Below the pieces are notes generated by a model, which saw only the letters and a program-made list of their open reading frames with translations, did no database searches and had not been told where the DNA came from. Of a stretch of DNA of 42,248 nt, positions 19,985 through 41,843 are shown in pieces. Numbering within the stretch: the first letter of the stretch is position 1; every line of letters starts with the position of its first letter. The position numbers and the translations under genes are program-made. This DNA is from Oscillospiraceae bacterium. GTDB lineage: Bacteria; Bacillota; Clostridia; Oscillospirales; Oscillospiraceae. The DNA is taken from positions 1 through 42,248 of the forward strand of contig JAFQZN010000001.1 in assembly GCA_017405865.1 (NCBI GenBank), written 5' to 3'.

Positions 19985-21940
19985 TCAATATACTACGACG
20001 GTGGTGCCGAGGGGGAGCGTCTCCATAAAGTTGCTGTCTGCAAACGACATGCGGATGCAGCCGTGGGACATCGGATAGCCCAGCGTCCCGTCAAAAATCG
20101 AGCCGTCATAGTTGTAGAGGATGGAATGGAACCCGATATCGCCGTTAAACAGCGTGACGTTGGTGACGTAGTAATTGTCGAAATTCCAGTGGTCGCCGGA
20201 CAGGTAGATCTCGTAGATGCCCTCCGGCGTGGGGCAGTTGTTCGCGCCGCTGGAGCAGGGGAAGGTCTTGTAGACCTTCCAGTTTTCCTTCTCGCCGGTA
20301 AAGACGATGACCTTCTGCGTGTAGCGGCTGACCCATACGAGGTAATTCGTCTTGCTGGAATAGCCCTTCAGATCGACGAAGCCCTCCTTGGTGGCGTCGG
20401 AGTAGTCGAGGCTGCCGTTGGTCGCACCGGGAGGATCGTCGGGAATGTAGCAGTCCCAGCGCGGCACCCAGCCGCGCGTGCCGTCCGTGCAGGCGACGTA
20501 GAACCACGTGCCGGCGGGGTGGAAGAGGTTATAGACGATCGTGCCCTTCGGCAGACTGCGGATCCAGCCGCCGCCGCCCTGATAGGAGTACAGGTCGGTA
20601 TCCTTCTCCACCGTGCAGGGAACCATCTGCGTCTTGACGGTGGAGAGCGCGTTGTCGTGTTCCTTCACGTAGGTCTGATACCACGTGTCGTCGAGCCTGT
20701 CGCAGGGGAGGGTGATATCGAAGTTGCCTGCGTTGATCGTGATGAGCGCGGCAGAGCCGGTGCCGTCCACGGTGACGTATTTGCCGTTGACGTCGATGGA
20801 CTCCGCCTTGCCGTCGTTGACCGTCAGGTGGGTATTGGCATAGCAGGTGACCTTGCCGGGGTTGCCGGTCACGGTGAGATGACCCGCGCGCAGCTCCGTC
20901 GTGCTGTAGTCGCCGACGGCGCTCTGCGTGCCGTCCATACTGACGAGCATCGCGGCGTTGCCGTAGAAGCTGCAGCCCGCGCCCCAGAGGTAGACCTCGG
21001 ACGCCTTGCCGTTGATCCTGCCGCTCAGAGGCGCACAGATCAGACGGGTGGCTTTCAGACCGCTGAGGTCGGCGTTGGTATCCTTGCCGGTGCGCAGCAT
21101 CACGCTGTCGGTCACGGACCAGTCGAAGGCGACGATCTTGGGGTCGATCGCCTGCCCGATGATCAGTGTGCCGTCGAGCCGCAATGCGCCGGGCAGCGGC
21201 TCGCTGCCGCGGTAGAGAACCCAGCCGGAGGCGGGAATGTCGGCGGGGGAGTCGGCGATGCAGTCGAAGAGATTGAACAGCAGCTGCGCGACCTCGGCGC
21301 GGGTGATGGAGTTCTGCGGGCCGAAGGAGCCGTCGTCATAGCCGTTGGCGAGCCCCTGCAACTTCATCGCGCTCAAAGCGTCGCGCGCCCAAGAGGAAAC
21401 GTCGCTGCCGTCGGTGAAGTCTTTGTACCTCTCGCGGTTGAGAGAGGTGATGCCGAAGGCGCGGGACAGAACGACGATCGCCTGCTCGCGGGTGATGGGA
21501 GCGTTGGGCTGCATCGAGGTGGCGGAAACGCCGCCAAAGATGCCTGCGTTGACCGCGCAGGACAGCTCCGTGCAGTACCACGCAGCGGGATCGACGTCCT
21601 GATAGGCACTCAAGTCGCAGGGCTCGGACGCGCCGAGCAGACGCACCAGCACGGCTGCCATCTCCGCGCGGGTGATGTTCGCCTGCGGGTTGAGATTGTG
21701 GTTTTCGTCGCCGGCAAGCACGCCGTTCTCCACGGCGAAGACCAGCGCCGGACGGCTCCAGTCGTTGGGGTATTCGTACTGGAATTCCGTCGGCTCGGTC
21801 GGCTCCGTTGCCTCCGTCGCTGCGCTTGCCTCCGATGCGCCGGGGACGATGGGCAGCTCGTTTTCTGCAAAGACCGCAATGCTCAAAAGCACGCACAGCG
21901 CCAGCAGTGCGGTCAGAACGATCAGTAATCTCTTTTTCAT
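19985..21940 (-). CDS. Secreted SLH-domain L,D-transpeptidase
   Basis: 651 residues from ATG 21940 (AGAGGAA upstream; the earlier in-frame TTG is rejected). A signal peptide (1-25) is followed by a Thr/Glu/Pro linker and three S-layer homology modules (about 56-115, 116-175, 176-230, with ITRAE/ITREQ motifs). A beta-rich middle region (240-410) follows, then an SH3-like segment (about 440-500, GTWFYVACTDGTRGWV) and a YkuD catalytic domain ending in SHGCIRM (Ser625-His626-Gly627-Cys628), with His605 upstream. YkuD enzymes make or exchange 3-3 peptidoglycan crosslinks or attach proteins. SLH modules would hold it on secondary wall polymer. It follows the M18 peptidase by 11 bases, so the two are probably cotranscribed. 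Confidence 0.92.
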   Translation of the reverse strand: MKKRLLIVLTALLALCVLLSIAVFAENELPIVPGASEASAATEATEPTEPTEFQYEYPNDWSRPALVFAVENGVLAGDENHNLNPQANITRAEMAAVLVRLLGASEPCDLSAYQDVDPAAWYCTELSCAVNAGIFGGVSATSMQPNAPITREQAIVVLSRAFGITSLNRERYKDFTDGSDVSSWARDALSAMKLQGLANGYDDGSFGPQNSITRAEVAQLLFNLFDCIADSPADIPASGWVLYRGSEPLPGALRLDGTLIIGQAIDPKIVAFDWSVTDSVMLRTGKDTNADLSGLKATRLICAPLSGRINGKASEVYLWGAGCSFYGNAAMLVSMDGTQSAVGDYSTTELRAGHLTVTGNPGKVTCYANTHLTVNDGKAESIDVNGKYVTVDGTGSAALITINAGNFDITLPCDRLDDTWYQTYVKEHDNALSTVKTQMVPCTVEKDTDLYSYQGGGGWIRSLPKGTIVYNLFHPAGTWFYVACTDGTRGWVPRWDCYIPDDPPGATNGSLDYSDATKEGFVDLKGYSSKTNYLVWVSRYTQKVIVFTGEKENWKVYKTFPCSSGANNCPTPEGIYEIYLSGDHWNFDNYYVTNVTLFNGDIGFHSILYNYDGSIFDGTLGYPMSHGCIRMSFADSNFMETLPLGTTVVVY

Positions 21941-21951
21941 ATGGGTTCCTC

Positions 21952-23223
21952 TCAATCTTCGTTAAAAAATGCTTCGCAAAGGCGGCAGAGTGCCTCTTGA
22001 TCCCGTGCGCCCATCGTCTCGCGGGCGGAGTGCATGGCAAGGATCGGAACGCCGACGTCCGCAGCCGGCATCGCCAGCAGCGCCGACGCCATCGAGCCGA
22101 CAGTGCTTCCGCCGGGCAGGTCCGCGCGGTTCATATAGGACTGCAGGGGAATGCCGTGCTTTTCGCACAGTGAGCGGATCACCGCGCAGGTCGCCGCATC
22201 GGAGGAATAGCGCGGCGAGCGCTTGAGCGCGACGCCGCCGTTCAGAACGGGGGCGTTGGACGGGTCGGCAAACTCCATGTGGTTCGGGTGCGCGGCGTGC
22301 GCCACGTCGCACGAGAGAAGAAAGCCCCCTGTGCAGGCGTCGAGGAAAGCGGCGCGATCCATGCCGAGCGCCAGCGCAAGCTTTTCCAGCACAATCTGCA
22401 GCATTGCGCTGTCCGCACCGTGGCGGGTGTTGCTGCCGATCTCCTCGTTGTCGTAGAGGACGGCGACGCTGATCTCCTTGCCGTTCGACCGGCACAGTCC
22501 GGACAGACAGGCATGCACGCTCGTCAGATTGTCCAGCCGGGGCGCAGACAGGAGGTCGCGCTCGAAGCCGACCGTCTGCGGCGGTTCGTCACAGTAGACG
22601 TACAGCTCGAAAGACAGCACGTCCTGCGTCGGAACAGACAGCCTTTCCGCCAGCTTCCCAAGAAGATAGCCGTTTTTGCTCCAGCCCTCCTCCACGGTGC
22701 GGCAGAGCGGCAGCATATCGACGTTCACCTTCGTGGCAACGCCCTTGTTGACCTCGCGGTTCATATGGATGGCGAGGTTCGGAATGGTCAGCAACGGCTC
22801 GTCCCACGAAACGAGTCGGAGCTCCGGCTGCATGGGATCGTCCGTCCGCACGGCGGCGATCCCCGCCAGAGAGAGCGGGCGATCCAACCACGTGTTTAGA
22901 ATCGCGCCGCCGTAGGGCTCCACGGAGAGCTTGCAGCAGCCGCCGGAAATCTGCTCCGGCGCCGGCTTGACGCGCAGGCACGGCCAGTCGGTATGCGCGG
23001 CGGCGATGCGGAAGCGCTCCGCCTGCTGACCCACCGTGAAGGCGACCAGCGCCGTGCCGTGCGGCACATAGTATTTTCCGCCGCGCTCCACGGGAAAGCG
23101 CCCGTGCAGCGGAAGCTCTGCAAAGCCCTGCTCGCGCAGGTGTTGCGCCGCTGCGGCGACGGTATGATAGGGAGAGACGCCGCTTTCCAGCCAGCGGCAA
23201 AGCTCCGCAGAAAAATCGGACAT
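21952..23223 (-). CDS. M18 family aminopeptidase
   Basis: 423 residues from ATG 23223 with AGGAGG upstream. The dinuclear zinc aminopeptidase motifs are present: HTDWP (His77), RLDNLTS, LYDNEEIGS, SCDVAHAAHPNH and a late MHSARE. M18 enzymes are cytoplasmic and remove N-terminal residues, acidic ones in the best-known members; substrate preference cannot be read here. The gene has a good promoter (23259-23287) and is followed after 11 bases by the L,D-transpeptidase gene. No functional link between the two is obvious. Confidence 0.93.
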   Translation of the reverse strand: MSDFSAELCRWLESGVSPYHTVAAAAQHLREQGFAELPLHGRFPVERGGKYYVPHGTALVAFTVGQQAERFRIAAAHTDWPCLRVKPAPEQISGGCCKLSVEPYGGAILNTWLDRPLSLAGIAAVRTDDPMQPELRLVSWDEPLLTIPNLAIHMNREVNKGVATKVNVDMLPLCRTVEEGWSKNGYLLGKLAERLSVPTQDVLSFELYVYCDEPPQTVGFERDLLSAPRLDNLTSVHACLSGLCRSNGKEISVAVLYDNEEIGSNTRHGADSAMLQIVLEKLALALGMDRAAFLDACTGGFLLSCDVAHAAHPNHMEFADPSNAPVLNGGVALKRSPRYSSDAATCAVIRSLCEKHGIPLQSYMNRADLPGGSTVGSMASALLAMPAADVGVPILAMHSARETMGARDQEALCRLCEAFFNED

Positions 23224-28086: not shown

Positions 28087-28161
28087 GCGGGTGTAGTATA
28101 ACGGCTAGTACAACAGCCTTCCAAGCTGTGGGCGTGGGTTCGATTCCCATCACTCGCTCCA
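28087..28161 (+). tRNA. tRNA-Gly (TCC)
   Basis: Cloverleaf with acceptor GCGGGTG/CACTCGC, anticodon loop CTTCCAA on a 5-bp stem (28113-28129), T-loop GGTTCGATTCC and encoded CCA. Confidence 0.95.
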
Positions 28162-28165
28162 ATAC

Positions 28166-28242
28166 GCGCCAGTAGCTCATCCGGATAGAGCAACTGCCTT
28201 CTAAGCAGTAGGTGGGGGGTTCGAGTCCCTTCTGGCGTACCA
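28166..28242 (+). tRNA. tRNA-Arg (TCT)
   Basis: Acceptor GCGCCAG/CTGGCGT (first pair G-U), anticodon loop CTTCTAA, T-loop GGTTCGAGTCC, encoded CCA. Its last 14 bases and the following 47 are repeated at 28407. Confidence 0.94.
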
Positions 28243-28289
28243 GTTGATATGTATATCAGCGAAGATGCAGACTTCTAAAAATCTGCAAA
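28229..28289 (+). repeat. Direct repeat covering the tRNA-Arg 3' end, copy 1
   Basis: 61 bases matching 28407-28467 with two mismatches (offset 178). It starts in the tRNA T-stem and runs past the CCA into a downstream hairpin (GCAGA..TCTGC). Confidence 0.9.
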
Positions 28290-28406
28290 GCAAAACGACA
28301 GATGTTGCCGGTACGCCTGCCAATCAGGCGTCGCCTAACGGCTCGCCTTCTTGGGAAGGGACTTGCGGCGCAGAAAAAATGCCACCGGCATCTTTTCTGC
28401 TTGCAA

Positions 28407-28467
28407 CTTCTGGCGTACCAGTTGATATGTATATCAGCAAAGATGCAGACTTCTGAAAATCTGCAAA
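28407..28467 (+). repeat. Direct repeat of the tRNA-Arg 3' end, copy 2
   Basis: Second copy, carrying CTTCTGGCGTACCA without the rest of a tRNA. The interval 28290-28406 and the stretch to 28512 hold no gene. They contain hairpins, including GCAGAAATGC/GCATTTCTGC at about 28470-28499 and a longer one near 28366-28400. Confidence 0.9.
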
Positions 28468-28512
28468 ACGCAGAAATGCGCCACAACAGCATTTCTGCGA
28501 GGGAAGAAATAC

Positions 28513-28590
28513 GGTGGGTGTAGCGTAGTTGGTTAACGCGTCAGATTGTGGCTCTGAAGACCGTGGGTTCGAGTCCCATCACTCACCCCA
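28513..28590 (+). tRNA. tRNA-His (GTG)
   Basis: Acceptor GTGGGTG/CACTCAC with the extra 5' G opposite C73 typical of tRNA-His, anticodon GTG in loop TTGTGGC, encoded CCA. Confidence 0.95.
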
Positions 28591-28618
28591 TTTCCCCCAT
28601 CCTTGGCACGGACCGTAT

Positions 28619-28693
28619 TGGGATGTCGCCAAGTGGTAAGGCACCAGACTTTGACTCTGGCATTCGTAGGTTCGAGTCCTGCCATCCCAGCCA
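28619..28693 (+). tRNA. tRNA-Gln (TTG)
   Basis: Acceptor TGGGATG/CATCCCA, anticodon TTG in loop CTTTGAC, T-loop GGTTCGAGTCC, encoded CCA. Confidence 0.95.
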
Positions 28694-28735
28694 TGTCGGA
28701 GCAAGGCCGTGCTTTGCTCCGATTCTTTTATTTTT

Positions 28736-28811
28736 GACCCGCTAGCTCAGCAGGCAGAGCAATTGCCTTTTAAGCAATGGGTCGGGAGTTCGAATCTCCC
28801 GCGGGTCACCA
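28736..28811 (+). tRNA. tRNA-Lys (TTT)
   Basis: Acceptor GACCCGC/GCGGGTC, anticodon TTT in loop CTTTTAA, T-loop AGTTCGAATCT, encoded CCA. Last tRNA of the operon. Confidence 0.95.
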
Positions 28812-29576: not shown

Positions 29577-29757
29577 CAATAACTTTTTTTCATAATCTCT
29601 GTTTCTGCGGGGAGACCTTGATGATAAACGATCAAGAGGTGATTTGAAGACAGCACAAAGCACCGTTTTGAAATGGGTGTGTTTGCTTAAAGTCAGACCA
29701 AAGCAGTGATAAATAGCATTTTACTGTTCATCCTTTATAAGCCGGGAAAAAGAATGG

Positions 29758-29786
29758 TTGCAAAGCAACCCCGGCTACAGTATAAT
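29758..29786 (+). promoter_or_regulatory. Promoter of the two-component system, overlapped by inverted repeats
   Basis: TTGCAA (29758-29763), 17-base spacer, TATAAT (29781-29786). The -35 lies inside nested inverted repeats, GGTTGC/GCAACC (29756-29761 and 29765-29770) and GCCGGG/CCCGGC (29741-29746 and 29770-29775), a possible operator. Confidence 0.6.
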
Positions 29787-29855
29787 ACTTCATTATATAA
29801 GGTCCTGCCAATTTGTGTGCGATGGGACGTGATGAGTTGGAAAGGAGCAATGCGA

Positions 29856-31187
29856 ATGACATCGGAGGCCATACTGTCGATTTTTAATACCCTATGGTAC
29901 GGCGTTTATGCCACTGCGCTCTGCATCCTGCTGCAGCGACGGTTTGGCTGGCTTGCGACCATACTCAGCTTTGTGGGAGTTTATGCAGTTTTTCTTACCT
30001 ACGGGTTATTCTTTGAGTTTTCCGTGGACAACGCAGAACGCGCCGCATCTGCCCTGCGCCTCCTCTTAATGATGTTTATGTATTTCGTTCCTGCGATCTT
30101 TCTGTTCCGGGAAAAGTGGTACAAGAGTCTGTTCACCGGCGGCGTTTGCTTTGCGATGCAGCTGGTGGCGGATCTCCTCAGCGCAACGCTGCTGATCCCG
30201 CACGAGCAGCTCCGGAGCGGAAGTATGGCGGATCTGCCGCCGAACCTAGTGATCGTCCTGGAGCTTCTTACCACGGCGCTCATTTTGTTCCTTACCGCTT
30301 TGTTTGTCATACTGATGCGGAACCGCACATTTCGGCTTGCGCCGACAGAATGGATCCTGTTCTGCATCTTCCCCGTCAGCCAGATCGTGCTGCTGGGCGG
30401 CTGGCAGTTCGTTTCCATGTCAGAATTGAACACGAACCGGGTGCTTGTCATGTCCATCGGAATGGGGCTGAGCGTTGCAGCGGACGGCTTTCTGTTTTTT
30501 GCTGTCCGGGGCATGGCGCAAAGAAGAAGCCTCACGATGCAGAAGGAACTGCTGGAGCAACAGGTGGAGCTGCAGAAAAAGCACTATGCCGCGCTTACAG
30601 ATCAGTACGAGGATATGCGCCGGATGCGTCACGATATTGCCAACCACCTTGAGACGATGAAGGCGCTGCTCGAGTGCGGCGAATACGCGGAGGCGTCCAG
30701 CTATACGGAAAACGCTGCAGGCTGGTTCCGCTACCGTTCCCGCGTCGGGACCTGCGAAAACCCGATAGTGGATGCGTTTCTTATGGCGAAGCTGGAGGAG
30801 CTCAAGCAGCAGGGCTGCACGCCGGAGATCCGTATTGCAGTGCCGCGGGAGCTGCCGATTGCCAATGTGGATATCATTGCGGCCTTCGGAAATCTGCTGG
30901 ACAATGTTGCAGAGGCCTGTGCGGAGAGTGGGGAGGGGCAGTTCACTTTGACTGCGGCGGTCAACCACGGCTTCCTGACCATCCGCACGGACAATCCCGT
31001 CGGGGAGAAAAAACAGCCGCACAGCCGCCGCATTCGGGAGCTTCCGCGCGGTATTGGGCATCAGATTCTGTCCGATTTGGCGGAAAAGTACGACGGCAGC
31101 TTCCGCGCCGGAGAGGAAAACGGCGTCTATACGGCGACCCTGAGCTTGAACACGGAGGTTCATCATGCTGCAGATCGCAATTTGTGA
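29856..31187 (+). CDS. GHKL-type sensor histidine kinase (AgrC-like)
   Basis: 443 residues from ATG 29856, 8 bases after AAGGAG; the ATG at 29850 is too close to that site. About six membrane helices fill residues 1-220, with no large external domain. A coiled-coil (MQKELLEQQVELQKKHYAAL) follows, then the HPK10-type phosphoacceptor box RRMRHDIANHLETM (His259), the N-box GNLLDNVAEAC and the G-box GIGHQILSDLAEKYDG. This is the family of AgrC and other peptide-sensing kinases. No AgrB or AgrD homologue is nearby, so the signal is unknown. Its 3' end overlaps the regulator gene by 23 bases. Confidence 0.88.
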   Translation: MTSEAILSIFNTLWYGVYATALCILLQRRFGWLATILSFVGVYAVFLTYGLFFEFSVDNAERAASALRLLLMMFMYFVPAIFLFREKWYKSLFTGGVCFAMQLVADLLSATLLIPHEQLRSGSMADLPPNLVIVLELLTTALILFLTALFVILMRNRTFRLAPTEWILFCIFPVSQIVLLGGWQFVSMSELNTNRVLVMSIGMGLSVAADGFLFFAVRGMAQRRSLTMQKELLEQQVELQKKHYAALTDQYEDMRRMRHDIANHLETMKALLECGEYAEASSYTENAAGWFRYRSRVGTCENPIVDAFLMAKLEELKQQGCTPEIRIAVPRELPIANVDIIAAFGNLLDNVAEACAESGEGQFTLTAAVNHGFLTIRTDNPVGEKKQPHSRRIRELPRGIGHQILSDLAEKYDGSFRAGEENGVYTATLSLNTEVHHAADRNL

Positions 31188-31875
31188 GGACGAAAAGGAG
31201 CAGGCGCTCTGGGCGGAAAAACTGATCCTGTCCGGTGTTCCTGAGCTGCACCCGCAGGTGCGCAGCTTCCCCTCCGCGGAGGATATGCTTTGCGCCGTTC
31301 GGGAGCAGTATCATCCCCGCGTGGCGGTGCTCGATATTGAGTTAGGCGGAGAGGACGGCATTTCCCTTGCGAGAACGCTCAACACGCTGCTTCCGGATTG
31401 CTCCATCATCTATTTGACTGCATTTTTGCAGTACGCTCCCGAGGTCTATTCTACCAGACATACCTATTATGTTATGAAGCAGGACGCTCCGGAACGTCTG
31501 GGCACGGCGATCCGAAAGGCAATGGAGGAGCAGGCGCAGGACGACACGCTCTGCTTCCGAACGGAAGGCGGTCTGCGCTTTGCGCGCTGCCGAGACATTC
31601 TCTATCTGGAACGGGTGCTGCACAAGACGATCATCCGACTGCAGCACGAGGAATGCGCAACGACCGCGTCACCCGCTGAACTGCTTGGCAGGGGAAACAA
31701 CCGATTCCTGCGCTGCCATCAGAGCTTTTGGGTAAATCTGGATTATATCCGCTCTATGCGCAGTGAAAGCTTCGTGCTGACCGACGGTACCGTGCTTCCC
31801 ATTTCCCGCACCTACCGTAAAAGCGTTCGTGAGCAGCTCTTTTCTAAGCTATCCTCTGAGTTGAAGAATACATAA
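31165..31875 (+). CDS. LytTR-family response regulator (AgrA-like)
   Basis: 236 residues from ATG 31165 with GGAGG 6 bases upstream. The receiver domain (1-120) has the acidic pair CEDE and the phosphoacceptor Asp57 in AVLDIELGGEDG. The C-terminal LytTR DNA-binding domain (about 130-235) shows GRGNNRFLRCHQSFWVNLDYI and LPISRTYRKSVREQL. It is partner of the kinase it overlaps. Regulators of this class often control secreted hydrolases, toxins or bacteriocins, so the downstream secreted-protein cluster is a possible target (inference). Confidence 0.9.
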   Translation: MLQIAICEDEKEQALWAEKLILSGVPELHPQVRSFPSAEDMLCAVREQYHPRVAVLDIELGGEDGISLARTLNTLLPDCSIIYLTAFLQYAPEVYSTRHTYYVMKQDAPERLGTAIRKAMEEQAQDDTLCFRTEGGLRFARCRDILYLERVLHKTIIRLQHEECATTASPAELLGRGNNRFLRCHQSFWVNLDYIRSMRSESFVLTDGTVLPISRTYRKSVREQLFSKLSSELKNT

Positions 31876-31891
31876 TGAACCGATCATGCGT

Positions 31892-31930
31892 AACCGCGCT
31901 GCCGTTTAACGGCAGCGCGGTTCCATTTTG
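31892..31930 (+). terminator. Terminator of the two-component system
   Basis: 13-bp stem AACCGCGCTGCCG/CGGCAGCGCGGTT (31892-31904 and 31910-31922), followed by CCATTTTG; the U-tract is short. Confidence 0.75.
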
Positions 31931-32051: not shown

Positions 32052-32372
32052 TTATCGCTCCAGCGATTCCTTCACGCTCTGCAGAATCTTAAGCAGCAAC
32101 GCTGCATTTGCTTCAGAGCAATCTCGCAAAAGCGCAGAGAGCTTCGCCTGTGTACCGCCCGGAGCTTCCTGCCCATAGATCAGCGCATCAGTTCCCGTAC
32201 GCAGCGCATCCGCCAGTGCGACCAGTACCGGAAGACTTAACTTTGTGTTGCCGGTCTCAATGTGACTCATATGCGTGAGGGAAATGTTGATGCGCTCTGC
32301 AAGTTGCTCTTGTGAGAGCCCAAGCGCCTTTCTCCGCGCCCGGATGCGCTGCCCGATCACATAGTAATCCAT
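32052..32372 (-). CDS. XRE-family transcriptional regulator
   Basis: 106 residues from ATG 32372 with AGGTGA upstream. The N-terminal helix-turn-helix of the Cro/CI type is clear (IGQRIRARRKALGLSQEQLA, then INISLTHMSHIETGNTKLSL). A short helical C-terminus (about 75-106) may dimerise. It is divergent from the cohesin-protein gene, and a perfect palindrome lies just upstream of its own start (32386-32401). It probably regulates itself and perhaps the divergent gene (inference). Confidence 0.87.
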   Translation of the reverse strand: MDYYVIGQRIRARRKALGLSQEQLAERINISLTHMSHIETGNTKLSLPVLVALADALRTGTDALIYGQEAPGGTQAKLSALLRDCSEANAALLLKILQSVKESLER

Positions 32373-32438: not shown

Positions 32439-32505
32439 AAAATAAACTGTATAGGCGATTTTTTGCTTATACAATTTAATTATATAACTAATGGGGGAAA
32501 AGCGA

Positions 32506-35500
32506 ATGATGAAACGGAGAATCCTATCTAGTCTGTTAGCGCTGTGTATAGTAGCGTCTCTGCTTGCCGGATTGGTTTGCCCTGTTGTTTCTGCCGTGGC
32601 TGAAACACGCGGAATGACAGGCAGTCAACTGGAGAGCCAAATTAGAAGCGTATATAAGGATGCTTTAGCTAGAGCGAGGAAGGTCAATTCAGATATTGGA
32701 AGAAAAATTGACGCAAATAACAGCTTCAGCGGCTACTGTGCGACTTATGTAAAATGGCAGATAAAGCTCTTGGGAATTGATCCTTCGCCGGCAAGCGGAC
32801 ATGGCAAAGATATGTTCGACAATTATAAGAACAAAAGCCAGTCATCTGGCGGCAAATATATTGCAGCTTATTCTGCAGCATCTTACGGAAACTTGAAAAC
32901 GATTCTTAACTTGATTACCGATAATGGAACGAAGAACGTTTACAATATTCTGATTGGATTTCAGCAATACACGGGGAATAAGGATGGAAGGACCTATGGT
33001 CACACGACGTTTATTCACGGGATTGTGAATGGAATGGTATACTCCTCTGAGTCTTTTTCTGGTAAGTTTGGTACAAGCAGCACAATTTCAGAAGGGGACC
33101 CGATTGTTCTATCTATCTCGAATTATTTTTCGGCATATCCTGCGAGCAAATACTACCTAGATGGTGTAATTGTGTTTTCTGATCAGCCGAACTATACGCT
33201 GTACTGTCACAACAACTACAGCGGGAAAAACTATCTGTACGGCACAGATTTCAGCGGATCGCTGAATTCCGACATCATCTATTCGCGCGATACAAGCGTG
33301 ACGACGGTCAGCACGGATCAGACGACACAGCATAACGGCAACAGTTCACTGAAAATTGTGAATACCTCTGCAGGCTCCTCGGGAAAGGATTTGGCAATTG
33401 CCACACTGACCAATGACCGAGCAGCAAACGGATGGATCGGCGACAGCAAACAAATGACACTGAGCTTTTGGGCAAAAGCATCTAACCCGAATACGGGGAT
33501 CTATTTTCGCTGGGGATACGGAAGCTACAACGGTGTGACACTTTCACAGGATTGGGCTTACTATTCAATTCCTATGAATAGAACTACTACCTACGGAAAG
33601 GACATGCATCCCTATGTTGACCGGGCGGGCACGGTTTGGATCACGGAAATGCAGTTAGAGGATGGGACAGAGGCGACTGCTTTTGCTCCGGAAAGTGTCA
33701 GAATAAATTACGAAAAAACAGTACAGACATCGGGACAAAACTACCAGCTTCCGTCCGTAGCTCCTTCACGCGAAGGGTATTCATTTGCAGGGTGGTATAC
33801 TGCGAAAAACGGAGGGACACAGATTACTTCACAGACTACAGTGCAGGATGGTAATCTCATCGTTTATGCACGTTGGATTCCGGATGCCTGTCAGCATGAG
33901 TACGCTCTTGATTATGAGACTCCTGCTACTTGTGAGGAGAACGGCGAGAGACATTTCGTTTGCAGCCTTTGCGGAGAAAACTATAGTGTACTAATTGCGG
34001 CGCTGGGACATCAATATCAAAGCAGTCTCCAGCCGGCTACCTGCGTGGATTACGGCGTGACGACCTACACCTGCACGGTCTGCGGCTACAGCTATTCCGA
34101 GACGGAGGATGATGAGTACAGCGAATGGAGCATCTCCTATCCTGCCGGTGCGAACAATAACGCCGTTGAGTCTGCTACCGGCTACCGTTACAGATTGCTG
34201 GAAACGACTACCGGTTCGGGATCACAAATGGAGGGGTGGACCGGCGCCGGGAGCGAATGGATTCAGACAGACGGCGGATCAGTCCAATACGTTGCTTCCT
34301 GGCCTGCAGGATTCAACACGAACAACGCGTATTATTCACAATATCACAATACGCCGGTGACTGAAAGCGAGACGGAAACCCAAAAAACATCGGTTGATTC
34401 GGACAATGTGATTGGTTATCTCTACTGGCACTGGTGCCGAAACTCCTACACGAGTGGTCCGATCGACCGCCTTGTGGCAGATCAGTGTGAAGGAGAATTT
34501 ACCGGGTTCCATTGCTTCTTCAGCACAACGTCGCCGTCCTCGTTGACAATGGACAGCTCGGGAACGGTATACAAGTATGCAAACGCAAACTGCTGTACAG
34601 ACACTTGGTGGTATTTTGCGCTGCCTGTCCGGCAGCAGGACTACCAAATGTTAGAAAAGCTGTATCACTTTGAGCGTTGGTCGGAGTGGTCCGACTGGGA
34701 CACGGAGGTAATCGAGGAAACTGCGACCTGCGACGTCGAAACTGCAACGATTTACCGCTATGCAACAAGCCTTCTCGAAGGACATCAATGGGGAGAATGG
34801 ACGGTAGTTACAGAGCCCACTTGCACGGTTGACGGACAAAGAAGCAGAACTTGCACCGTTTGCGGTGAGACGGAGACGGAAGCGATCCCTGCTGCGCATA
34901 ACTGGGATGAGAATGAACAGTTCTGTACCGTTTGCGGCGCTCTAAACCCGGATTATATCGCGCTTTGTGTTGCGCCTGCTTCCGGTACGGTTCAGCCCGG
35001 CGAGAGCGTGACGGTCCCCGTGTCCATTACGGATAATACCGGCTTTGCGGGCTTCACTTTCATTATTACCTGCGACGAGGGCCTGACCATTACAAACATC
35101 ACGAAGGGTGCTTTACTGAGCACGTCTGAAAGCGGCAGTTTTACCAAAAACATTGAAAGCGGGAAAGTAACCTGGTATGACGTCGAGAATCTGACGAATG
35201 ACGGCGTGCTGTTCAATCTGGTGCTTACGCTCTCCGCCAATGCAGAGCCGGGCGAATATGGAATAACGATCGCCCTGAAAGACAGTCAGCCTACGAATTT
35301 TGTGGATTATCTGAGCCAGGCAGTTCCCATTCGCTTCACTGCAGGCAAGGTCGTATACAACGACCATACCCATTCTTATACCGCAGTAACGACGTCTCCG
35401 ACCTGTACGGAAGCAGGCGCGATCATCTATACCTGCGAATGCGGCGATACGTACAGCGAAACGCTGGAACCGCTCGGACATCTTCAAGGGGAAGCGACAG

Positions 35501-37158
35501 AAGAAGTTACGACGCCTGCAACCTGCACGACTGCAGGAAGCGGCTACGCGGTCGTATATTGTGAGCGCTGCAATATCGAACTGAGCAGAGAAGCGATCGT
35601 GCTGCCGGCGTTAGGCCACGATTATGTTGAAACGGTTTTGATTCCCGTTACCTGTACGGAAGACGGCGCGTCCCAGTTTACCTGCAGCCGATGCGGCGAC
35701 AGTTACACGCAGATTATTCCGGCGCTTGGTCATATATTTGAAGACGAGGTACTGATTCCGGCGACCTGTACGGAAGAAGGCGCGATTCTGCGCACGTGTT
35801 CGAGGTGTAATTATCAAACGACAGAGTTTGTTGCGCCGCTTGGACATAATTATGCAGAAGAAGTGCTGATTGCGGCAACCTGCACGGACGACGGTGCATC
35901 GCAGTTTACCTGCAGCAGATGCGGCGATACCAAAACGGAAGTAACACCTGCGCTCGGACATCTGCTTGAACGGACTGTGACCGAGCCGACCTGCGAGGAA
36001 GACGGATCGATCGTTGAAACTTGCTCGAGGTGTGGTTACACGCATACGGAGGCTCTGCCTGCATTGGGACACGACTATGTAGGAACGATTCTTCTGGAAC
36101 CGACCTGCACGACGCGCGGCGTGATTCGTTATAGCTGCTCGCGCTGCAGCAGTCAGTATTCCGAGTTTATTCCCGCCGGTCACGATTTGAGCTATACCGA
36201 TAACGGAAACGGCACGCATACCGCTTCCTGTTCTCGCTGTGATTACAGCGTGACTGAGGAGCACAGCTACATCAACGGTACCTGCGTCTGCGGAGCGAGT
36301 GAACTTGTTCCGGAGATCAAGTCCGCCTCCTTGCTTCTTAACGAGGATATCGATATCATCTATTCTGTTCAGATTCCGGAAGGTTTCACTGACCCATATC
36401 TGGTCGTCAATGGAGCCCGGATCACGGACTCCTTTGTACAGAATGACAGACTGTGCTTTGTATATACAGGCATTACGCCTCAATGCATGGGGGACAGCAT
36501 TACGGCGGTTCTCCATGCCAGCCGTAACGGCAAGGAGGTAACTGATACTGTAGCAAACTATAGCGTGAAACAGTATTGCATCAACCAGTTGGCGAATCAT
36601 CCGGAGGATACCGTGCTGAAGACCCTGCTGGCTGACCTGTTGTGTTACGGCGCAGCTGCACAGCAGTATACCAATTACAGAACTGACAGCCTTGTTACTA
36701 CCGGATTGGATCTGACGCCTTCTGCGTTCGGTGGGATTTCCAACAAGACTGCGTCCTTCACCGGCACGGCAGACATGACAGTGGACTGGATCGGCGCAGG
36801 ACTGATCCTCGGAAATAGTGTTTCAATGCGGTTGACCTTTACGGCGGAAAATATCCAAAACCTGAGTGTAACGGTTGCTATCAATGGCAGAGAAGAAGCG
36901 TTCAACTCTGAGGATTTCAACAGTGCAGGAGACGGGAAATACTACATAGACTTTTGCGGTATTGAGGCCAACGAGTTTGACGATGCCGTTACTGCAAGCT
37001 TCAGCTGCGGCGGCAAGAGTGTCGGCAGAGTGCTGAGTTACACCGTTAACGCTTACGTCTGCTCTACGCAGAACAGCGACAACGCAAGTTTGCAGACCTT
37101 GGTAAAAGCACTGTACAACTATGGCGTTTCTGCCCTGGCTTACGCTGAAAGCCAGTGA
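32506..37158 (+). CDS. Large secreted protein: amidase-like domain, cysteine-rich repeats and a cohesin module
   Basis: 1550 residues from ATG 32506, with GGGGG 8 bases upstream. A signal peptide (about 1-32) leads into a Cys/His amidase-like domain (about 45-225; Cys78 in SGYCATYVKWQ, His166/His171 in YGHTTFIHG), reading like a CHAP or NlpC-type hydrolase. A carbohydrate-binding-like beta domain (about 225-398) and an InlB-type repeat (REGYSFAGWYTAKNGGTQI, about 399-458) follow. Next are cysteine-rich repeats, a Trp-rich domain (about 535-760, ending RWSEWSDWDTE), one more repeat, and then a cohesin module (about 819-945: ESVTVPVSITDNTGFAGFTF, GEYGITIALKD). Eight tandem cysteine repeats (about 955-1265) and a C-terminal 280-residue domain of unknown type close the protein. 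No dockerin, LPxTG or SLH is seen. It is probably the scaffold for the three dockerin proteins downstream. Confidence 0.85.
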   Translation: MMKRRILSSLLALCIVASLLAGLVCPVVSAVAETRGMTGSQLESQIRSVYKDALARARKVNSDIGRKIDANNSFSGYCATYVKWQIKLLGIDPSPASGHGKDMFDNYKNKSQSSGGKYIAAYSAASYGNLKTILNLITDNGTKNVYNILIGFQQYTGNKDGRTYGHTTFIHGIVNGMVYSSESFSGKFGTSSTISEGDPIVLSISNYFSAYPASKYYLDGVIVFSDQPNYTLYCHNNYSGKNYLYGTDFSGSLNSDIIYSRDTSVTTVSTDQTTQHNGNSSLKIVNTSAGSSGKDLAIATLTNDRAANGWIGDSKQMTLSFWAKASNPNTGIYFRWGYGSYNGVTLSQDWAYYSIPMNRTTTYGKDMHPYVDRAGTVWITEMQLEDGTEATAFAPESVRINYEKTVQTSGQNYQLPSVAPSREGYSFAGWYTAKNGGTQITSQTTVQDGNLIVYARWIPDACQHEYALDYETPATCEENGERHFVCSLCGENYSVLIAALGHQYQSSLQPATCVDYGVTTYTCTVCGYSYSETEDDEYSEWSISYPAGANNNAVESATGYRYRLLETTTGSGSQMEGWTGAGSEWIQTDGGSVQYVASWPAGFNTNNAYYSQYHNTPVTESETETQKTSVDSDNVIGYLYWHWCRNSYTSGPIDRLVADQCEGEFTGFHCFFSTTSPSSLTMDSSGTVYKYANANCCTDTWWYFALPVRQQDYQMLEKLYHFERWSEWSDWDTEVIEETATCDVETATIYRYATSLLEGHQWGEWTVVTEPTCTVDGQRSRTCTVCGETETEAIPAAHNWDENEQFCTVCGALNPDYIALCVAPASGTVQPGESVTVPVSITDNTGFAGFTFIITCDEGLTITNITKGALLSTSESGSFTKNIESGKVTWYDVENLTNDGVLFNLVLTLSANAEPGEYGITIALKDSQPTNFVDYLSQAVPIRFTAGKVVYNDHTHSYTAVTTSPTCTEAGAIIYTCECGDTYSETLEPLGHLQGEATEEVTTPATCTTAGSGYAVVYCERCNIELSREAIVLPALGHDYVETVLIPVTCTEDGASQFTCSRCGDSYTQIIPALGHIFEDEVLIPATCTEEGAILRTCSRCNYQTTEFVAPLGHNYAEEVLIAATCTDDGASQFTCSRCGDTKTEVTPALGHLLERTVTEPTCEEDGSIVETCSRCGYTHTEALPALGHDYVGTILLEPTCTTRGVIRYSCSRCSSQYSEFIPAGHDLSYTDNGNGTHTASCSRCDYSVTEEHSYINGTCVCGASELVPEIKSASLLLNEDIDIIYSVQIPEGFTDPYLVVNGARITDSFVQNDRLCFVYTGITPQCMGDSITAVLHASRNGKEVTDTVANYSVKQYCINQLANHPEDTVLKTLLADLLCYGAAAQQYTNYRTDSLVTTGLDLTPSAFGGISNKTASFTGTADMTVDWIGAGLILGNSVSMRLTFTAENIQNLSVTVAINGREEAFNSEDFNSAGDGKYYIDFCGIEANEFDDAVTASFSCGGKSVGRVLSYTVNAYVCSTQNSDNASLQTLVKALYNYGVSALAYAESQ
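35368..36301 (+). repeat. Tandem repeats encoding about 38-residue cysteine-rich units
   Basis: About eight diverged units in the cohesin protein, each with the frame TCTxxG, then CSRCG, then PALGH. The same unit occurs three and a half times in each of the three dockerin proteins. DNA copies are diverged, so this is an old protein-level repeat rather than a recent expansion. Confidence 0.85.
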
Positions 37159-37163
37159 CAATG

Positions 37164-37191
37164 TTGGCAGCACGCGATAGCGTGCTGCCAA
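37164..37191 (+). other. Intercistronic stem-loop without U-tract
   Basis: Perfect 12-bp stem TTGGCAGCACGC/GCGTGCTGCCAA with GATA loop, 5 bases after the cohesin gene. No T-run follows. It may stabilise the upstream message or mark a processing site. Confidence 0.65.
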
Positions 37192-37236
37192 CCAAAACCA
37201 GACGATCCTGCTGCGATGATAAAGAGGAAATGGGAA

Positions 37237-38400
37237 ATGAAGAAAAGACTGCTGGTTTTCATCCTTGTAGTGTTATTGCTGTTACCGCTCCTGCCGACAA
37301 CAGAGGTTGTCGCAGCTGATAGGATTGTAATGACTGCTTCAGAATTTATATCCTGCCTGCAGAGAGCGCTTGCAAGAAATACTACCTATAATAACAGTTA
37401 TCCGTACAATCTTGGCTATTATGACGGTTCAACGATTTCCTGGGATTGTTGGAATCTGGGGAAAAGCATCATTTGGACAGCGGGTTCCATTGTAGACAAC
37501 TATACAGTCGGTACGCACGCACGCGTAGATACAAGCTGCGGACTTGGGGATTGGACCGGGCTTACAATCATTCAGAAAGCGCCGAACTGTAATGGCGACT
37601 TTACAAACCTGATCCCCGGTGAATGGCTCTATATGGATGGTCATACCGGATACTATATCGGAAACGGACAGGTAATCGAATGCACGACAGGCTGGGGCGC
37701 GAATTGTGTTACACAGTCCCAGATCAGTACCACCGGCGCCAGATCAAGGAACGGTGTGAGAGGCGGCACTTGGCTGTACCACGGTATGGTGCCTTGGATT
37801 GACTATTCTGAGTTTTTGCACCAACACAGCTATACGGTGTCAGTTACGCTTGCGCCGGGATGCCTGACAACCGGCGTGCGTACATACACGTGCAACTGCG
37901 GCGCTTCCTATACGGAAACCATTGCGGCGCTGGGTCATAAATGGAGCGCGTGGACAACTATGACCGCTTCGACGTGTACTGCCGCAGGCGTCAGTGTGAG
38001 AAGCTGCAGCCGCTGCGGGCAGCAGGAAACGCAGTCCCTTCCGATCGTTGACCACCAATATGTACTCCAGACGATCCAGCCGACTTGTACGGAGAACGGG
38101 TACGATCTTCATACCTGCTCCGTGTGCGGCGACGCCTATGAGGACAGCGTTATCCCTGCAACAGGTCATAACTATGTCAGATGCGTTTGCACCCTGTGCG
38201 GTGCAATTGACCCGTCGCTGCAAAGCGGCGATATGAATCTGGACGGTCAGATAACTTCAGCAGATGCCGTCTTGTTGGCAAGATATCTGATCAACTTGGC
38301 GGAATTGAACGAAGCACAACTGTCGGCAGCGGATCTGAACAACGACGGTGTGATTACTTCTGCGGACACCGTGTTGCTGGCACAGTATCTGCTGCAGTAA
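37237..38400 (+). CDS. Secreted dockerin protein with NlpC/P60-like hydrolase domain
   Basis: 387 residues from ATG 37237 (AGAGGAAATGGG before it; the earlier in-frame ATG 37216 has no ribosome site). A signal peptide (about 1-27) is followed by an NlpC/P60-like cysteine hydrolase domain (about 30-190; Cys71 in ISWDCWNLGKS, His136 in MDGHTGYYIGNGQVIE). Three and a half cysteine-rich repeats (about 197-320) follow, then a type I dockerin (about 331-387). The dockerin has two Ca-binding loops, DMNLDGQITSAD and DLNNDGVITSAD, each with Ser-Ala at positions 10-11. Substrate inferred: peptidoglycan stem peptides. It follows the cohesin gene in the same direction. Confidence 0.85.
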   Translation: MKKRLLVFILVVLLLLPLLPTTEVVAADRIVMTASEFISCLQRALARNTTYNNSYPYNLGYYDGSTISWDCWNLGKSIIWTAGSIVDNYTVGTHARVDTSCGLGDWTGLTIIQKAPNCNGDFTNLIPGEWLYMDGHTGYYIGNGQVIECTTGWGANCVTQSQISTTGARSRNGVRGGTWLYHGMVPWIDYSEFLHQHSYTVSVTLAPGCLTTGVRTYTCNCGASYTETIAALGHKWSAWTTMTASTCTAAGVSVRSCSRCGQQETQSLPIVDHQYVLQTIQPTCTENGYDLHTCSVCGDAYEDSVIPATGHNYVRCVCTLCGAIDPSLQSGDMNLDGQITSADAVLLARYLINLAELNEAQLSAADLNNDGVITSADTVLLAQYLLQ

Positions 38401-38473
38401 TCTAAAGCTTTACACAACGCTTTTTTACGATACTGGTAAACAGTTTCCAAAAGCAGAGAATACATTCTATTAA

Positions 38474-40546
38474 ATGGAAAGAAAAAACAAAATTGTGAAA
38501 AAACGAAGAACAATTTGCTGCTTCGTGATAATAGTTGCACTGCTTTTGACACCCGTTTTCGCTTTTGAAGGGGCGCTGCCGGAAGCAACAAACGAAGCAT
38601 ATAAAGAGAGATTTGAGATCGGCGCAGAGCCGGGAGAAATGATTTCTTTCGGCGGAATTGCCGTGAACTCGGAATATGGGCTTTTCACGACGAATGATAA
38701 CGAAGGCATTTGCCTTAACGGCAACGATTTTCTGCCGGATAAGGCTGCCCGGCTGAATTACCTCGGTGGGAACTTGTATTATATCTCGGACGGATGTGCC
38801 TATCGGTTTGATCTGAACAGCAACGAAAAGACCTTTGTTTTTTCGGAAGAAGAAAGCATTCGCCAGTTCTATGTGGTAAATGGTGAGGATTTTTGGTACC
38901 TTACTGACAGCGGAATCTATCTATACAAGAACGGCGAACAAAATGAGGTATTGGCGAATGATAAACTATTTGGATTTACGCCGACGCCTTTCGGATTAGT
39001 ATACGCTGAAGGAGATCTGTTTGACTACAGCATATTTGCTGGAGAGCGCTTGCTTGCGGAGCATTCTTCCTCGTTCTCGGTGGATTTTGAATTATGCGGC
39101 GGAAGCATTTTGTTTGAAACAGACGGCAGTAGTTTTTACATCACTTTGGAAGATGCTTTCTCCGGTTCCGGCATACCGCAGGAATACCGGGGATATGCCG
39201 TTGTTGATGCAGACGAACTTTTCAGCGGATTAACGGAACCTGATGAAGAAGGCTCGCAATCAACAGTAAAAAGGACTGCGCAGAAAAGTTATAGAAAGAC
39301 GCTTTCTACCGGCGTGCAGAATATTGTCCGCCGCGCTTATCAGATGACCAATATCCGTTGGACACCCCAAAAGAATATTACCGGATGGGACGGCGGGCTT
39401 ACGTATTACGCAGGACGTACATATACAGGATTACCGTATGGACAGCCGGTTGACGCCAGTTATGTTCCTTGGACGACGTCTTTACCGCAGTTTGTTTCCT
39501 ACGTGAACGATCCGAACAGTAAAATGTATACATCCTATGCCTCGTATAATTGCCGCGCGCCGTATTATTCCGTTGATTGCAGCGCCTTCGTCAGTTGGGC
39601 CTGGAATCTCGGTTCAAGGCAAACGACGGCTACAATGCACAACTATGCGACACTGATCAGCAGCAGTTCCTACGCGAATATGCAGGTTGCCGATTGCTTC
39701 TGCAAAGCAGGAAGCCACGTGGTTCTTGTTACGGATATGACGTATGATGCAAATGGCGTTATTAACGGCGTTGAGATTTCTGAGGCAACAGTCAACGCCG
39801 GTACGAATTACTGCTGCCAGAAAACGTGGTATGGCACCGGGTACAGTCAGTCCCTCTCTAAAATGCAGTCGAAGTATCTCGGAGACGGATATATTCTCTA
39901 CCGTTCCAATACGAGGGAGAACGTATCCTATACGCACTACAGCGTCGTCGTGTTAGACGATGATGTACACAGCGATGTTCTGACTTCAGGCACCCCGGCG
40001 ACCTGCATAAATGCCGGACAGAATGTCTATACGTGCTCTGTCTGCGGACGGAGCAGAACAGAGACGATACCTGCGACGGGTCATTCTTTTGGCGACTGGG
40101 TGGTAACAGTACAAGCGAATTGTATTATGACAGGATTGGAGACAAGAACCTGCATTGCCTGCGGCGCGCAGGAGACGAGAACGCTCCCGGCAGGCGGGCA
40201 TAGTTATTTGGTTACTACCGTTGCCCCGAACTGCACGCAGGAAGGGTATGATCTTCATAACTGCGCGTACTGCGGCGATCAATACACAGATAACGTCATA
40301 CCTGCCGCAGGACACAGGTTCTCTGCCGGAATCTGCACTGTTTGCGGCGCAGTGGATGAATCAATTCCAAAAGGCGACGTCAATTTGGACGGTATCGTAT
40401 CCTCTGCCGATGCTGTGCTGCTTGCGCGCTATCTTGTTGATGCAGCGCAGATCAGCGAGGCACAGAGCTTTGCTGCAGATTTGAACAACGATAATCTCAT
40501 TACTTCTGCAGATGCTGTGTTGTTAGCACGACTGTTAGTCGCATAA
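38474..40546 (+). CDS. Secreted dockerin protein with NlpC/P60-like domain and propeller-like N-terminus
   Basis: 690 residues from ATG 38474, the only start that keeps the signal peptide (about 1-30), although the ribosome site is weak. Residues 50-260 form short beta repeats (GGNLYYISDG, EDFWYLTDSGIYLYKNGE) resembling DUF5050-type propeller blades. Residues about 275-485 are an NlpC/P60-like hydrolase (Cys369 in YSVDCSAFVSWAWNLG, His415 in KAGSHVVLVTDM). Three and a half cysteine-rich repeats follow (about 500-628), then a type I dockerin (634-690; loops DVNLDGIVSSAD and DLNNDNLITSAD). It is third in the secreted cluster, 73 bases after the previous gene. Confidence 0.85.
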   Translation: MERKNKIVKKRRTICCFVIIVALLLTPVFAFEGALPEATNEAYKERFEIGAEPGEMISFGGIAVNSEYGLFTTNDNEGICLNGNDFLPDKAARLNYLGGNLYYISDGCAYRFDLNSNEKTFVFSEEESIRQFYVVNGEDFWYLTDSGIYLYKNGEQNEVLANDKLFGFTPTPFGLVYAEGDLFDYSIFAGERLLAEHSSSFSVDFELCGGSILFETDGSSFYITLEDAFSGSGIPQEYRGYAVVDADELFSGLTEPDEEGSQSTVKRTAQKSYRKTLSTGVQNIVRRAYQMTNIRWTPQKNITGWDGGLTYYAGRTYTGLPYGQPVDASYVPWTTSLPQFVSYVNDPNSKMYTSYASYNCRAPYYSVDCSAFVSWAWNLGSRQTTATMHNYATLISSSSYANMQVADCFCKAGSHVVLVTDMTYDANGVINGVEISEATVNAGTNYCCQKTWYGTGYSQSLSKMQSKYLGDGYILYRSNTRENVSYTHYSVVVLDDDVHSDVLTSGTPATCINAGQNVYTCSVCGRSRTETIPATGHSFGDWVVTVQANCIMTGLETRTCIACGAQETRTLPAGGHSYLVTTVAPNCTQEGYDLHNCAYCGDQYTDNVIPAAGHRFSAGICTVCGAVDESIPKGDVNLDGIVSSADAVLLARYLVDAAQISEAQSFAADLNNDNLITSADAVLLARLLVA

Positions 40547-40565
40547 AGAAAGAGAGTTACATGAT

Positions 40566-41843
40566 ATGAGAAAGAGCATAATACGAATACTAATTGTAAT
40601 GCTGCTTGCTGCATTTGCTTTTAGCATCGTCGCGTCGGCGGTGAGCACGTCGGATTTGCGGGCTACTACTCCGGTTTATCGCGGCATTGACGTCAGTCAC
40701 CATCAAGGAAGAATAGACTGGAATACAGTTGCAACTCAAATTGACTTCGTGATCTTGCGTTGTGGCTATGGCGACGATTCTACATCCTACGATGATACCC
40801 AGTGGGCGCGAAATGTATCCGAATGCGAGCGCCTGGGGATTCCATACGGTGTGTATCTTTATTCTTATGCGTCATCAGACGCAGAAGCGCAAAGTGAGGC
40901 AGAACACGCGCTTCGGCTTTTGGCAGGGCATTCGCCCCAACTGCCGGTATACTTAGATTTGGAAGATAAAGTCATCGCCAATAATTGCTCTAATGCTGAT
41001 ATTCTTCGTCAAGCGACGATTTTCTGCAACCGTTTGCAGGCGGCGGGCTATTCTGTCGGAATATACGCAAACAAGAACTGGTGGACAACGAAGCTGACAA
41101 ATTCGGCTTATGATCAGTGGAGCAGATGGATTGCTATCTGGGGGGCCAGTTCGCCAGCATATGACAAGGCATATGATATTTGGCAGTATTCGAGCACCGG
41201 CAGTGTCTCCGGGATTTCCGGCAATGTCGATATGGACTATTGGTATGGCGAACTTCCGACGCATCAGCACAGCTATACGTCGTCTGTCACGCAGGAGCCA
41301 AGTTGCTTGACTACGGGTGCGCGCACATATGTGTGCAGCTGCGGCGCGTCCTATACTGAAACGATTGCAGCACTTGGGCATGATTGGAGCGAGTGGACAG
41401 CCACAAACTTACCGACCTGCACTGCTGAAGGCGTTAATATGAGAAGCTGCAGTCGCTGTGGTCAGCAGGAAACGCAGACAATTACGATGACGGAGCACCA
41501 ATATACGGTCCAAACGATACCGCCTGCCTGCACAGAAGATGGATATGATCTTTACACGTGTTCCGTGTGCGGCGACACCTATACAGACAGCGTTGTACCT
41601 GCAACAGGGCATAGCTTTGTCAGTGGTATTTGCTCCATATGCGAAGCGATTGATCCAACAATCCAAGATGGCGATATTAATCTGGATGGGCAGATCACTT
41701 CAGCTGATACCGTAATGCTGGCGAGATTTATAGTTGATCTGGCAGAGCTGAACCAGGCACAAATGGAAGCAGCAGATATGAATAATGATGGCGTTATTAC
41801 ATCGGCAGATATTGTAATCCTGGCGCAGCAATTAACACATTAA
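40566..41843 (+). CDS. Secreted dockerin protein with GH25 muramidase domain
   Basis: 425 residues from ATG 40566. A signal peptide (about 1-25) precedes a GH25 lysozyme domain (about 37-228). The domain opens with GIDVSHHQGRIDW (Asp42) and has the catalytic pair in VYLDLED (Asp131, Glu133), and ends GNVDMDYWYG. GH25 enzymes cut the N-acetylmuramic acid to N-acetylglucosamine bond of peptidoglycan. Three and a half cysteine-rich repeats (about 233-361) and a type I dockerin (369-425; loops DINLDGQITSAD and DMNNDGVITSAD) follow. The repeats and dockerin closely resemble those of the 37.2 kb gene, suggesting duplication and swapping of the catalytic domain. It lies 19 bases after the previous gene and is last in the cluster, before a strong terminator. 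Confidence 0.92.
   Translation: MRKSIIRILIVMLLAAFAFSIVASAVSTSDLRATTPVYRGIDVSHHQGRIDWNTVATQIDFVILRCGYGDDSTSYDDTQWARNVSECERLGIPYGVYLYSYASSDAEAQSEAEHALRLLAGHSPQLPVYLDLEDKVIANNCSNADILRQATIFCNRLQAAGYSVGIYANKNWWTTKLTNSAYDQWSRWIAIWGASSPAYDKAYDIWQYSSTGSVSGISGNVDMDYWYGELPTHQHSYTSSVTQEPSCLTTGARTYVCSCGASYTETIAALGHDWSEWTATNLPTCTAEGVNMRSCSRCGQQETQTITMTEHQYTVQTIPPACTEDGYDLYTCSVCGDTYTDSVVPATGHSFVSGICSICEAIDPTIQDGDINLDGQITSADTVMLARFIVDLAELNQAQMEAADMNNDGVITSADIVILAQQLTH

Follow-up and report, generated by a model that had tools for sequence, protein, structure and literature searches.

The window analysed here, a 42,248-nucleotide stretch of DNA from an Oscillospiraceae bacterium (GenBank assembly GCA_017405865.1, contig JAFQZN010000001.1, positions 1 to 42,248 of the forward strand), carries near its 3' end four open reading frames (ORFs), P1 to P4, which lie on the same strand (+, as do all their features given below), span positions 32491–41843 (~9.3 kb) and probably encode a minimal cohesin-dockerin complex of bacterial wall hydrolases. 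P1 (32491–37158, 1555 residues) is a cohesin protein and putative anchoring scaffoldin with a CHAP-like domain of its own. The three other proteins all end in Cys-rich repeats and a dockerin, preceded by an NlpC/P60-type domain in P2 (37216–38400, 394 residues), by an N-terminal domain and an NlpC/P60-like domain in P3 (38474–40546, 690 residues) and by a GH25 muramidase domain in P4 (40566–41843, 425 residues). For P1 the second in-frame ATG, at 32506, is as plausible a start as 32491, and for P2 a start at 37237 is favoured by a ribosome-binding-like sequence seen by eye. The intergenic gaps P1/P2, P2/P3 and P3/P4 measure 57, 73 and 19 nt. The first of these contains a strong hairpin (~37164–37191) that lacks a T run, a terminator-like hairpin of 13 pairs lies 3' of P4 (41974–42003), and the contig ends 405 nt past P4. 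The N-termini of all four proteins resemble signal peptides by eye, and secretion of P1 to P4 is predicted. The Pfam listing of the four proteins contained no SLH domain, and neither an LPXTG motif nor a C-terminal membrane span was seen in them by eye. The first-pass annotation of this DNA had described four neighbouring genes of these domain types, free of any glycoside hydrolase for plant fibre, and both statements hold: the genes are where it had put them, and Pfam lists no such hydrolase in P1 to P4.

The cohesin of P1 (34987–35271, residues 833–927) matched PF00963 at 37.3 and 43.6 bits against a curated cut-off of 24.1, and no further cohesin was found in the 2.08 Mb assembly even at E ≤ 10. 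Type I dockerins (PF00404), each with two duplicated calcium loops, were found in P2 (38227–38394, 47.8 bits), P3 (40370–40537, 42.9 bits) and P4 (41670–41834, 42.4 bits), and these three matches, all within the same 9.3 kb, were the only ones in the assembly. Consistently with the first-pass annotation, the cohesin, all three dockerins and the GH25 domain scored above the Pfam curated cut-offs. The gathering of the sole cohesin and all the dockerins of the assembly in one operon is well beyond chance; the assembly, in 83 contigs, is 92% complete, so a further copy elsewhere is possible. The D-x-N-x-D calcium positions were kept in six of six dockerin repeats, and SA and AR/AQ occupied, again in all six, what we take from the type I dockerin literature to be the recognition positions. 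Against the P2 tail (Cys-rich part plus dockerin), the P3 tail shows 50% identity and the P4 tail 69%; taken separately, dockerins and Cys-rich parts are 66% and 44% identical between P3 and P2, 57% and 44% between P3 and P4, and 71% and 69% between P2 and P4. The kept positions, and a P3 dockerin more conserved than the Cys-rich part beside it, speak for docking; the likeness among the dockerins may, however, come from tail duplication alone.

The catalytic domains differ in how well they can be assigned. No Pfam match to an NlpC/P60-like or amidase-like domain was obtained with full-length P1, P2 or P3 at E ≤ 10. The P2 domain (37306–37815) is an NlpC/P60 domain of a type common in phages: in an alignment search of viral contigs, 208 stretches matched the pattern and 177 of them encoded relatives (80 were kept), a single-sequence search of viral contigs returned no relative, and a search of phage records gave one match among 50,697, at 28% identity. 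Its profile matched CwlO structures (E 0.002), and its family aligned with 26 NlpC/P60 domains (NLPC_P60) from relatives over 88 columns, with the catalytic Cys and His both aligned (hhalign 97%; maximum 15.4% in 50 column shuffles). The GH25 domain of P4 (40686–41216) scored 94.2 bits, above the cut-off, with its DxE motif intact (DLE), and P4 matched the endolysin family phrog_291 of PHROGs at 2.2e-52. In the same database P3 had no match, and P1 and P2 had none better than 0.016; no relatives of the P3 domain or of the N-terminal domain of P1 were found in the viral searches.

The catalytic domain of P3 (P3_cat, 39260–39913) has a Cys and a His that are invariant in 22 of 22 aligned sequences, and that of P1 (P1_N, 32593–33195) a Cys, a His and a Glu invariant in four. 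Several results on these two domains weigh against a full set of wall hydrolases. The P3 family aligned with the 26 NlpC/P60 domains at hhalign 95% (shuffle maximum 2.0%, again in 50) over 48 columns of the Cys half only, and the comparison domains had been chosen by the motif around this Cys; PF00877 was matched by six of 22 family members (best 1.6e-4) and not by P3 itself; and an AlphaFold2 (AF2) model of the domain, made without an alignment, had a predicted local distance difference test (pLDDT) value of 31. P1_N matched CHAP at E 0.0031 and 18.4 bits, below the 26-bit cut-off; two of the four members of its family matched CHAP, and its hhalign value against NlpC/P60 (1%) was lower than its best column shuffle. 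P2 resembles genuine NlpC/P60 domains, and P3 appears to do so over the Cys half only. Among the first-pass labels, NlpC/P60 fits P2 well and P3 in part, and the amidase-like label of P1 comes down to a sub-threshold CHAP match.

Beyond its cohesin, P1 contains a Listeria-Bacteroides repeat (Flg_new, 33718–33870, 46.1 bits), a C-terminal run of Cys-rich repeats (35371–36180), three further such repeats at ~33895–34107 and 34783–34899, and a C-terminal domain of 235 residues (P1_C, 36451–37155), of a kind that often ends proteins in this genus. Relatives of P1_C were found in 16 of 240 family genomes, with at least 11 copies in each of four (G000, G001, G010 and G011), those of G010 being 25–28% identical. 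In 20 fetched cases, 17 ended within three residues of the stop codon and one 22 residues before it, the remaining two extending past the fetched slice. This type of tail sits on large proteins of the genus; P2, P3 and P4 are without it and end in their dockerins. These features suggest a surface-retention or sorting role, by which P1 would be kept at or near the cell surface. As an observation on the tail itself, the domain (L341–L375) had no match in the PDB; each of four genomes of the genus has it on at least 11 ORFs, and it is a candidate for a new sorting tail. Cys-rich repeats resembling those of P1 to P4 (L310–L340) gave matches in 167 of 394 genomes of the order, and no function was found for them.

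The same genome encodes a single-chain protein (L132, 1906 residues) that joins P3_N, P3_cat, GH25, Cys-rich repeats and P1_C, and P3_cat is 66–68% identical to the copy inside it. This domain order was also found in G001, G003, G011 and G007, in total five of 17 genus genomes (L132–L135, L264). P3_N-P3_cat-GH25 without P1_C was found in L136, L137, L269 and L270, all from one other genus (g119), so that a P3-type domain is fused to GH25 in nine chains; in L138 the three pieces lie in two frames. No cohesin or dockerin was found in these single chains with our own hidden Markov models (HMMs). A natural domain fusion is a classical sign of separate proteins acting together, and this one supports a coupling of P3 and P4: enzymes of the two types appear to be naturally coupled. 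It also strengthens the first-pass proposal of a cohesin-dockerin logic, which stands with wall hydrolases as the sole detected cargo.

The operon is not simply the single chain cut into parts. In the P3 tree, P3 lay nearest by path to the single chains of the genus, with weak support; in the GH25 tree, P4 did not group with the single chains and joined a GH25 protein of G190 that carries three SLH domains (support 88/81, not strong). Nor is P1_C peculiar to the single chain, since it was found well beyond it, and as a common tail it weakens the tie of P1 to that protein. The operon thus appears to be a mosaic. An origin simply by splitting of the native paralogue was rejected on the grouping of the P4 GH25 domain with G190, on a G+C content at third codon positions (GC3) 26–34 points lower than in that paralogue, and on the commonness of P1_C.

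GC3 is 55, 57, 51 and 49% in P1, P2, P3 and P4, against 81–86% in four genes elsewhere in the window. The single-chain paralogue stands at 83%; the two genes of an upstream two-component system (67–68%) and a helix-turn-helix (HTH) gene (60%) fall between the operon and the rest. Overall G+C content is 46–53% over 32–42 kb and 54–64% over 1–28 kb, with a shift that begins around a five-tRNA array (28087–28811); an exact border of the low-GC region was not found. Acquisition of the operon from a lower-GC relative would be the simplest reading.

The catalytic domains of the operon have relatives in the family. Among 300 family genomes, own genome included, relatives were found in 14 for the P2 domain, 31 for P3 and four for P1_N, and a dockerin-bearing version of P3 in one of the 17 genus genomes. 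The survey of related genomes proposed by the first-pass annotation was run, and the same four-gene order was not found elsewhere in the family and order genomes searched. No dockerin was found on a P2-, P3- or P1_N-type domain in the stretches fetched around the best relatives, which covered part of the 31 P3 cases and in some reached just 1.5 kb past the match. In a GH25 search of the 300 family genomes, those among the matches listed that reach the dockerin part all came from the own genome. The P2 tail matched at least 20 loci in the genome contigs; among those listed, 19 reach the dockerin, L090 covering the dockerin and part of the Cys-rich part, and L088 covers the Cys-rich part only. 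In the order, the tails gave matches in 167 of 394 genomes, and most among the matches listed were of the Cys-rich part without a dockerin. Dockerin-reaching cases fetched from seven genomes contained no catalytic domain of the P1_N, P2, P3 or P4 type by our own HMMs; several had BspA-like repeats and one looked transglutaminase-like by eye.

Taken together, these data are best accommodated by a set of docked wall hydrolases. P1, in which a CHAP-like domain and a single cohesin are joined to a C-terminal tail, would act as an adaptor or anchoring scaffoldin held by its tail at or near the cell surface, and P2, P3 and P4, without a tail and with the same recognition residues in their dockerins, would dock to it, any one per P1. 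Since P1 has one cohesin, no more than one enzyme could be docked on it at any time. The first-pass idea of glycan and peptide cleavage joined in one particle is not supported for the whole set, given the single cohesin; what is possible, unless P1 oligomerises, is a particle made of the P1 CHAP-like domain and one docked enzyme. A mixed population of P1-enzyme pairs could then cleave stem peptides alongside glycan strands, and the docked set would do non-covalently what the single-chain paralogue, with its P3-type domains, GH25 and tail, would do covalently. As to the target, an accessory role on the walls or wall debris of other bacteria is favoured over essential remodelling of the own wall because of the foreign composition and because the dockerin version of P3 occurs in one of 17 genus genomes; action on the walls of other bacteria is thus put forward tentatively, at a little under even chances.

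The rival that survives best concerns the target only. The complex might form and, as the docked counterpart of the single-chain hydrolase, act on the wall of its producer in cell separation, turnover or mother-cell lysis. The L132 paralogue lies beside two SLH proteins, the closest GH25 relative of P4 in the tree has three SLH domains, and P1 bears a tail common in the genus, all of which would suit such a role. Set against this are the compositionally foreign genes, the occurrence of the docked P3 in one of 17 genus genomes and the presence in the genome of the intact single chain and two ordinary NlpC/P60 matches, so that the operon is probably not needed for housekeeping. We consider action on the own wall rather unlikely.

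Docking itself may also be questioned. The cohesin-like domain of P1 could be an orphan adhesion or structural beta-sandwich, with dockerins that bind otherwise or stabilise their enzymes, leaving wall hydrolases that are merely co-secreted. Three results weigh in this direction and against a complex. The closest cohesin to that of P1 among 20 loci compared (38% over 132 residues) belongs to G001, on a 5'-nucleotidase-like protein (L062:5180–12049) with leucine-rich repeats (LRR), the cohesin, Cys-rich repeats and SLH domains; no dockerin was found in that genome, so dockerin binding does not follow from the presence of a cohesin domain here. Conversely, no cohesin was detected in G003 or G008, each of which has a dockerin. 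The model of the P1 cohesin, of middling confidence, matched cohesin structures no better than unrelated beta-sandwiches, although by sequence its best solved matches were cellulosomal cohesins, with weak E values of 0.0012 and 0.0027. Against the orphan reading stands the fact that one operon holds the only cohesin detected and each of the three dockerins detected; cohesin genes adjoining dockerin genes are also found repeatedly across the order. In 60 genomes, own included, a cohesin was found in 25 and a dockerin in 31. Fourteen relatives carry one to three dockerins together with at least one cohesin; in 11 of these (12 of 15 when the own genome is counted) the two lay within 4 kb on one contig, the exceptions being G029, G059 and G058 (in G058, one of three dockerins is among those listed), and the cohesins of G058 and G016 fell below the Pfam cut-off. 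Small cohesin-dockerin neighbourhoods are thus usual in this order; that of the window is a larger example, with wall hydrolases as its cargo. On balance, an orphan cohesin is less likely again than action on the own wall.

The least probable alternative, that the cargo is not peptidoglycan-specific, its cysteine domains acting on proteins or other amides and P4 alone cutting walls, could draw on the partial or weak family matches of P3 and P1 and on a crystallised dockerin-borne NlpC/P60 module of Ruminococcus flavefaciens for which the available text of PMC3573020 reports no detectable protease activity, but it fits poorly with the P2 family in viral contigs and with the fusion of P3-type domains to GH25.

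Among the cohesin-dockerin loci of the order, L054, L058, L059, L063, L067, L068 and L070 have adjoining cohesin and dockerin genes, with varied cargo. Some dockerin proteins elsewhere in the genus carry a subtilase (G015) or PG_binding_1 domains (G005, L055:2766–8069; G008, L061:8137–9624, with an HExxH-like motif by eye).

Upstream of the operon, the five-tRNA array (Gly, Arg, His, Gln, Lys) contains two 61-nt direct repeats between its genes (28229–28289 and 28407–28467, 97% alike). A GHKL-type sensor kinase and a LytTR response regulator in an AgrC/AgrA-like layout follow on the strand of the operon (29706–31875), with a terminator-like hairpin of their own (31892–31922); no LytTR binding site was seen by eye before P1. 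An Xre-type HTH regulator (HTH_3/HTH_31, 32052–32372, −) is divergent from P1 and could be a local regulator of the operon. Further upstream, a protein with SLH and L,D-transpeptidase (YkuD) domains (19985–21955, −) suggests that the host anchors proteins by SLH.

Cohesin-dockerin sets are established for plant fibre and starch. The cellulosomes of Clostridia and Ruminococcus share with this operon type I dockerins on enzymes, a cohesin on a partner protein, adjoining genes, and a cohesin protein and dockerin enzymes within one genome. They differ in having a scaffoldin with several cohesins, where P1, like the 92%-complete assembly as a whole, shows a single one, and in a plant cell wall cargo, where the dockerin proteins here carry NlpC/P60-type or GH25 domains and no cellulase occurs in the four. 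Sets for non-plant substrates have been described, according to the available texts, in the mucin-degrading mucinolysome of Limousia (PMC12997984, whose text also counts 4333 human gut genomes, out of 289,232, with both cohesin and dockerin) and in a proposed peptide-degrading planctosome (PMC6461901); their substrates are mucin glycans and polypeptides, and the mucinolysome has more components.

Single wall hydrolases with dockerins have also been reported. Table 3 of PMC4081043, with its columns as we interpret them, gives a single dockerin-bearing GH25 for R. albus SY3 and, for each of R. albus 7, 8 and SY3, a single GH73 with a dockerin; strains 7 and SY3 have one cohesin protein and strain 8 has none. 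The same paper lists a GH25-GH25 architecture without a dockerin in R. flavefaciens. The dockerin-borne enzymes are wall-cutting glycosidases as in P4, standing singly amid mainly plant-fibre dockerin sets, and the available text describes no wall-hydrolase operon. RflaF_05439 of R. flavefaciens FD-1, with two NlpC/P60 modules and an X-dockerin (PDB 4EZY), likewise places NlpC/P60 on a dockerin protein and is reported, as unpublished results in the text seen of PMC3573020, to bind the anchoring cohesin ScaE; it belongs to a cellulosome with more than 220 dockerin proteins, and that text reports no activity seen for its NlpC/P60 module. A GH25 of B. cellulosolvens is called non-cellulosomal in what was available of PMC6507058.

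The nearest precedent in print is in PMC6403190, whose accessible part cites wall hydrolases that bear dockerins and a lysozyme activity in the cellulosome of R. champanellensis, and puts forward 'lyticome' as the name of a complex for bacterial lysis. The logic is the same, and the gene content here fits it; there it is one activity within a cellulosome, and here all detected dockerin cargo is wall-hydrolase-like. The first-pass statement that no complex of this make-up was known to have been described therefore needs qualifying: the idea and single dockerin-borne enzymes are in the literature, at least in the portions available, and a cohesin-dockerin operon with only peptidoglycan hydrolases was not found in the literature searched, which mostly excluded subscription papers. 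The parts and the idea are known. The operon may, as a bold suggestion that we hold slightly short of even, encode a dedicated lyticome, four genes that were acquired horizontally and make a self-contained machine solely for cutting bacterial walls, in which the parts of a covalent hydrolase have become exchangeable docked parts and one surface protein presents different enzymes. If so, the cohesin-dockerin principle would be seen at work on bacterial walls, and the lyticome idea would gain a small testable case of four genes, one cohesin and three dockerins. A further likeness lies within the genus, in the single-chain hydrolases, which combine NlpC/P60-like and GH25 domains with Cys-rich repeats and a C-terminal tail and differ in being covalent and free of detected cohesins and dockerins; the one in the same genome would provide a built-in control.

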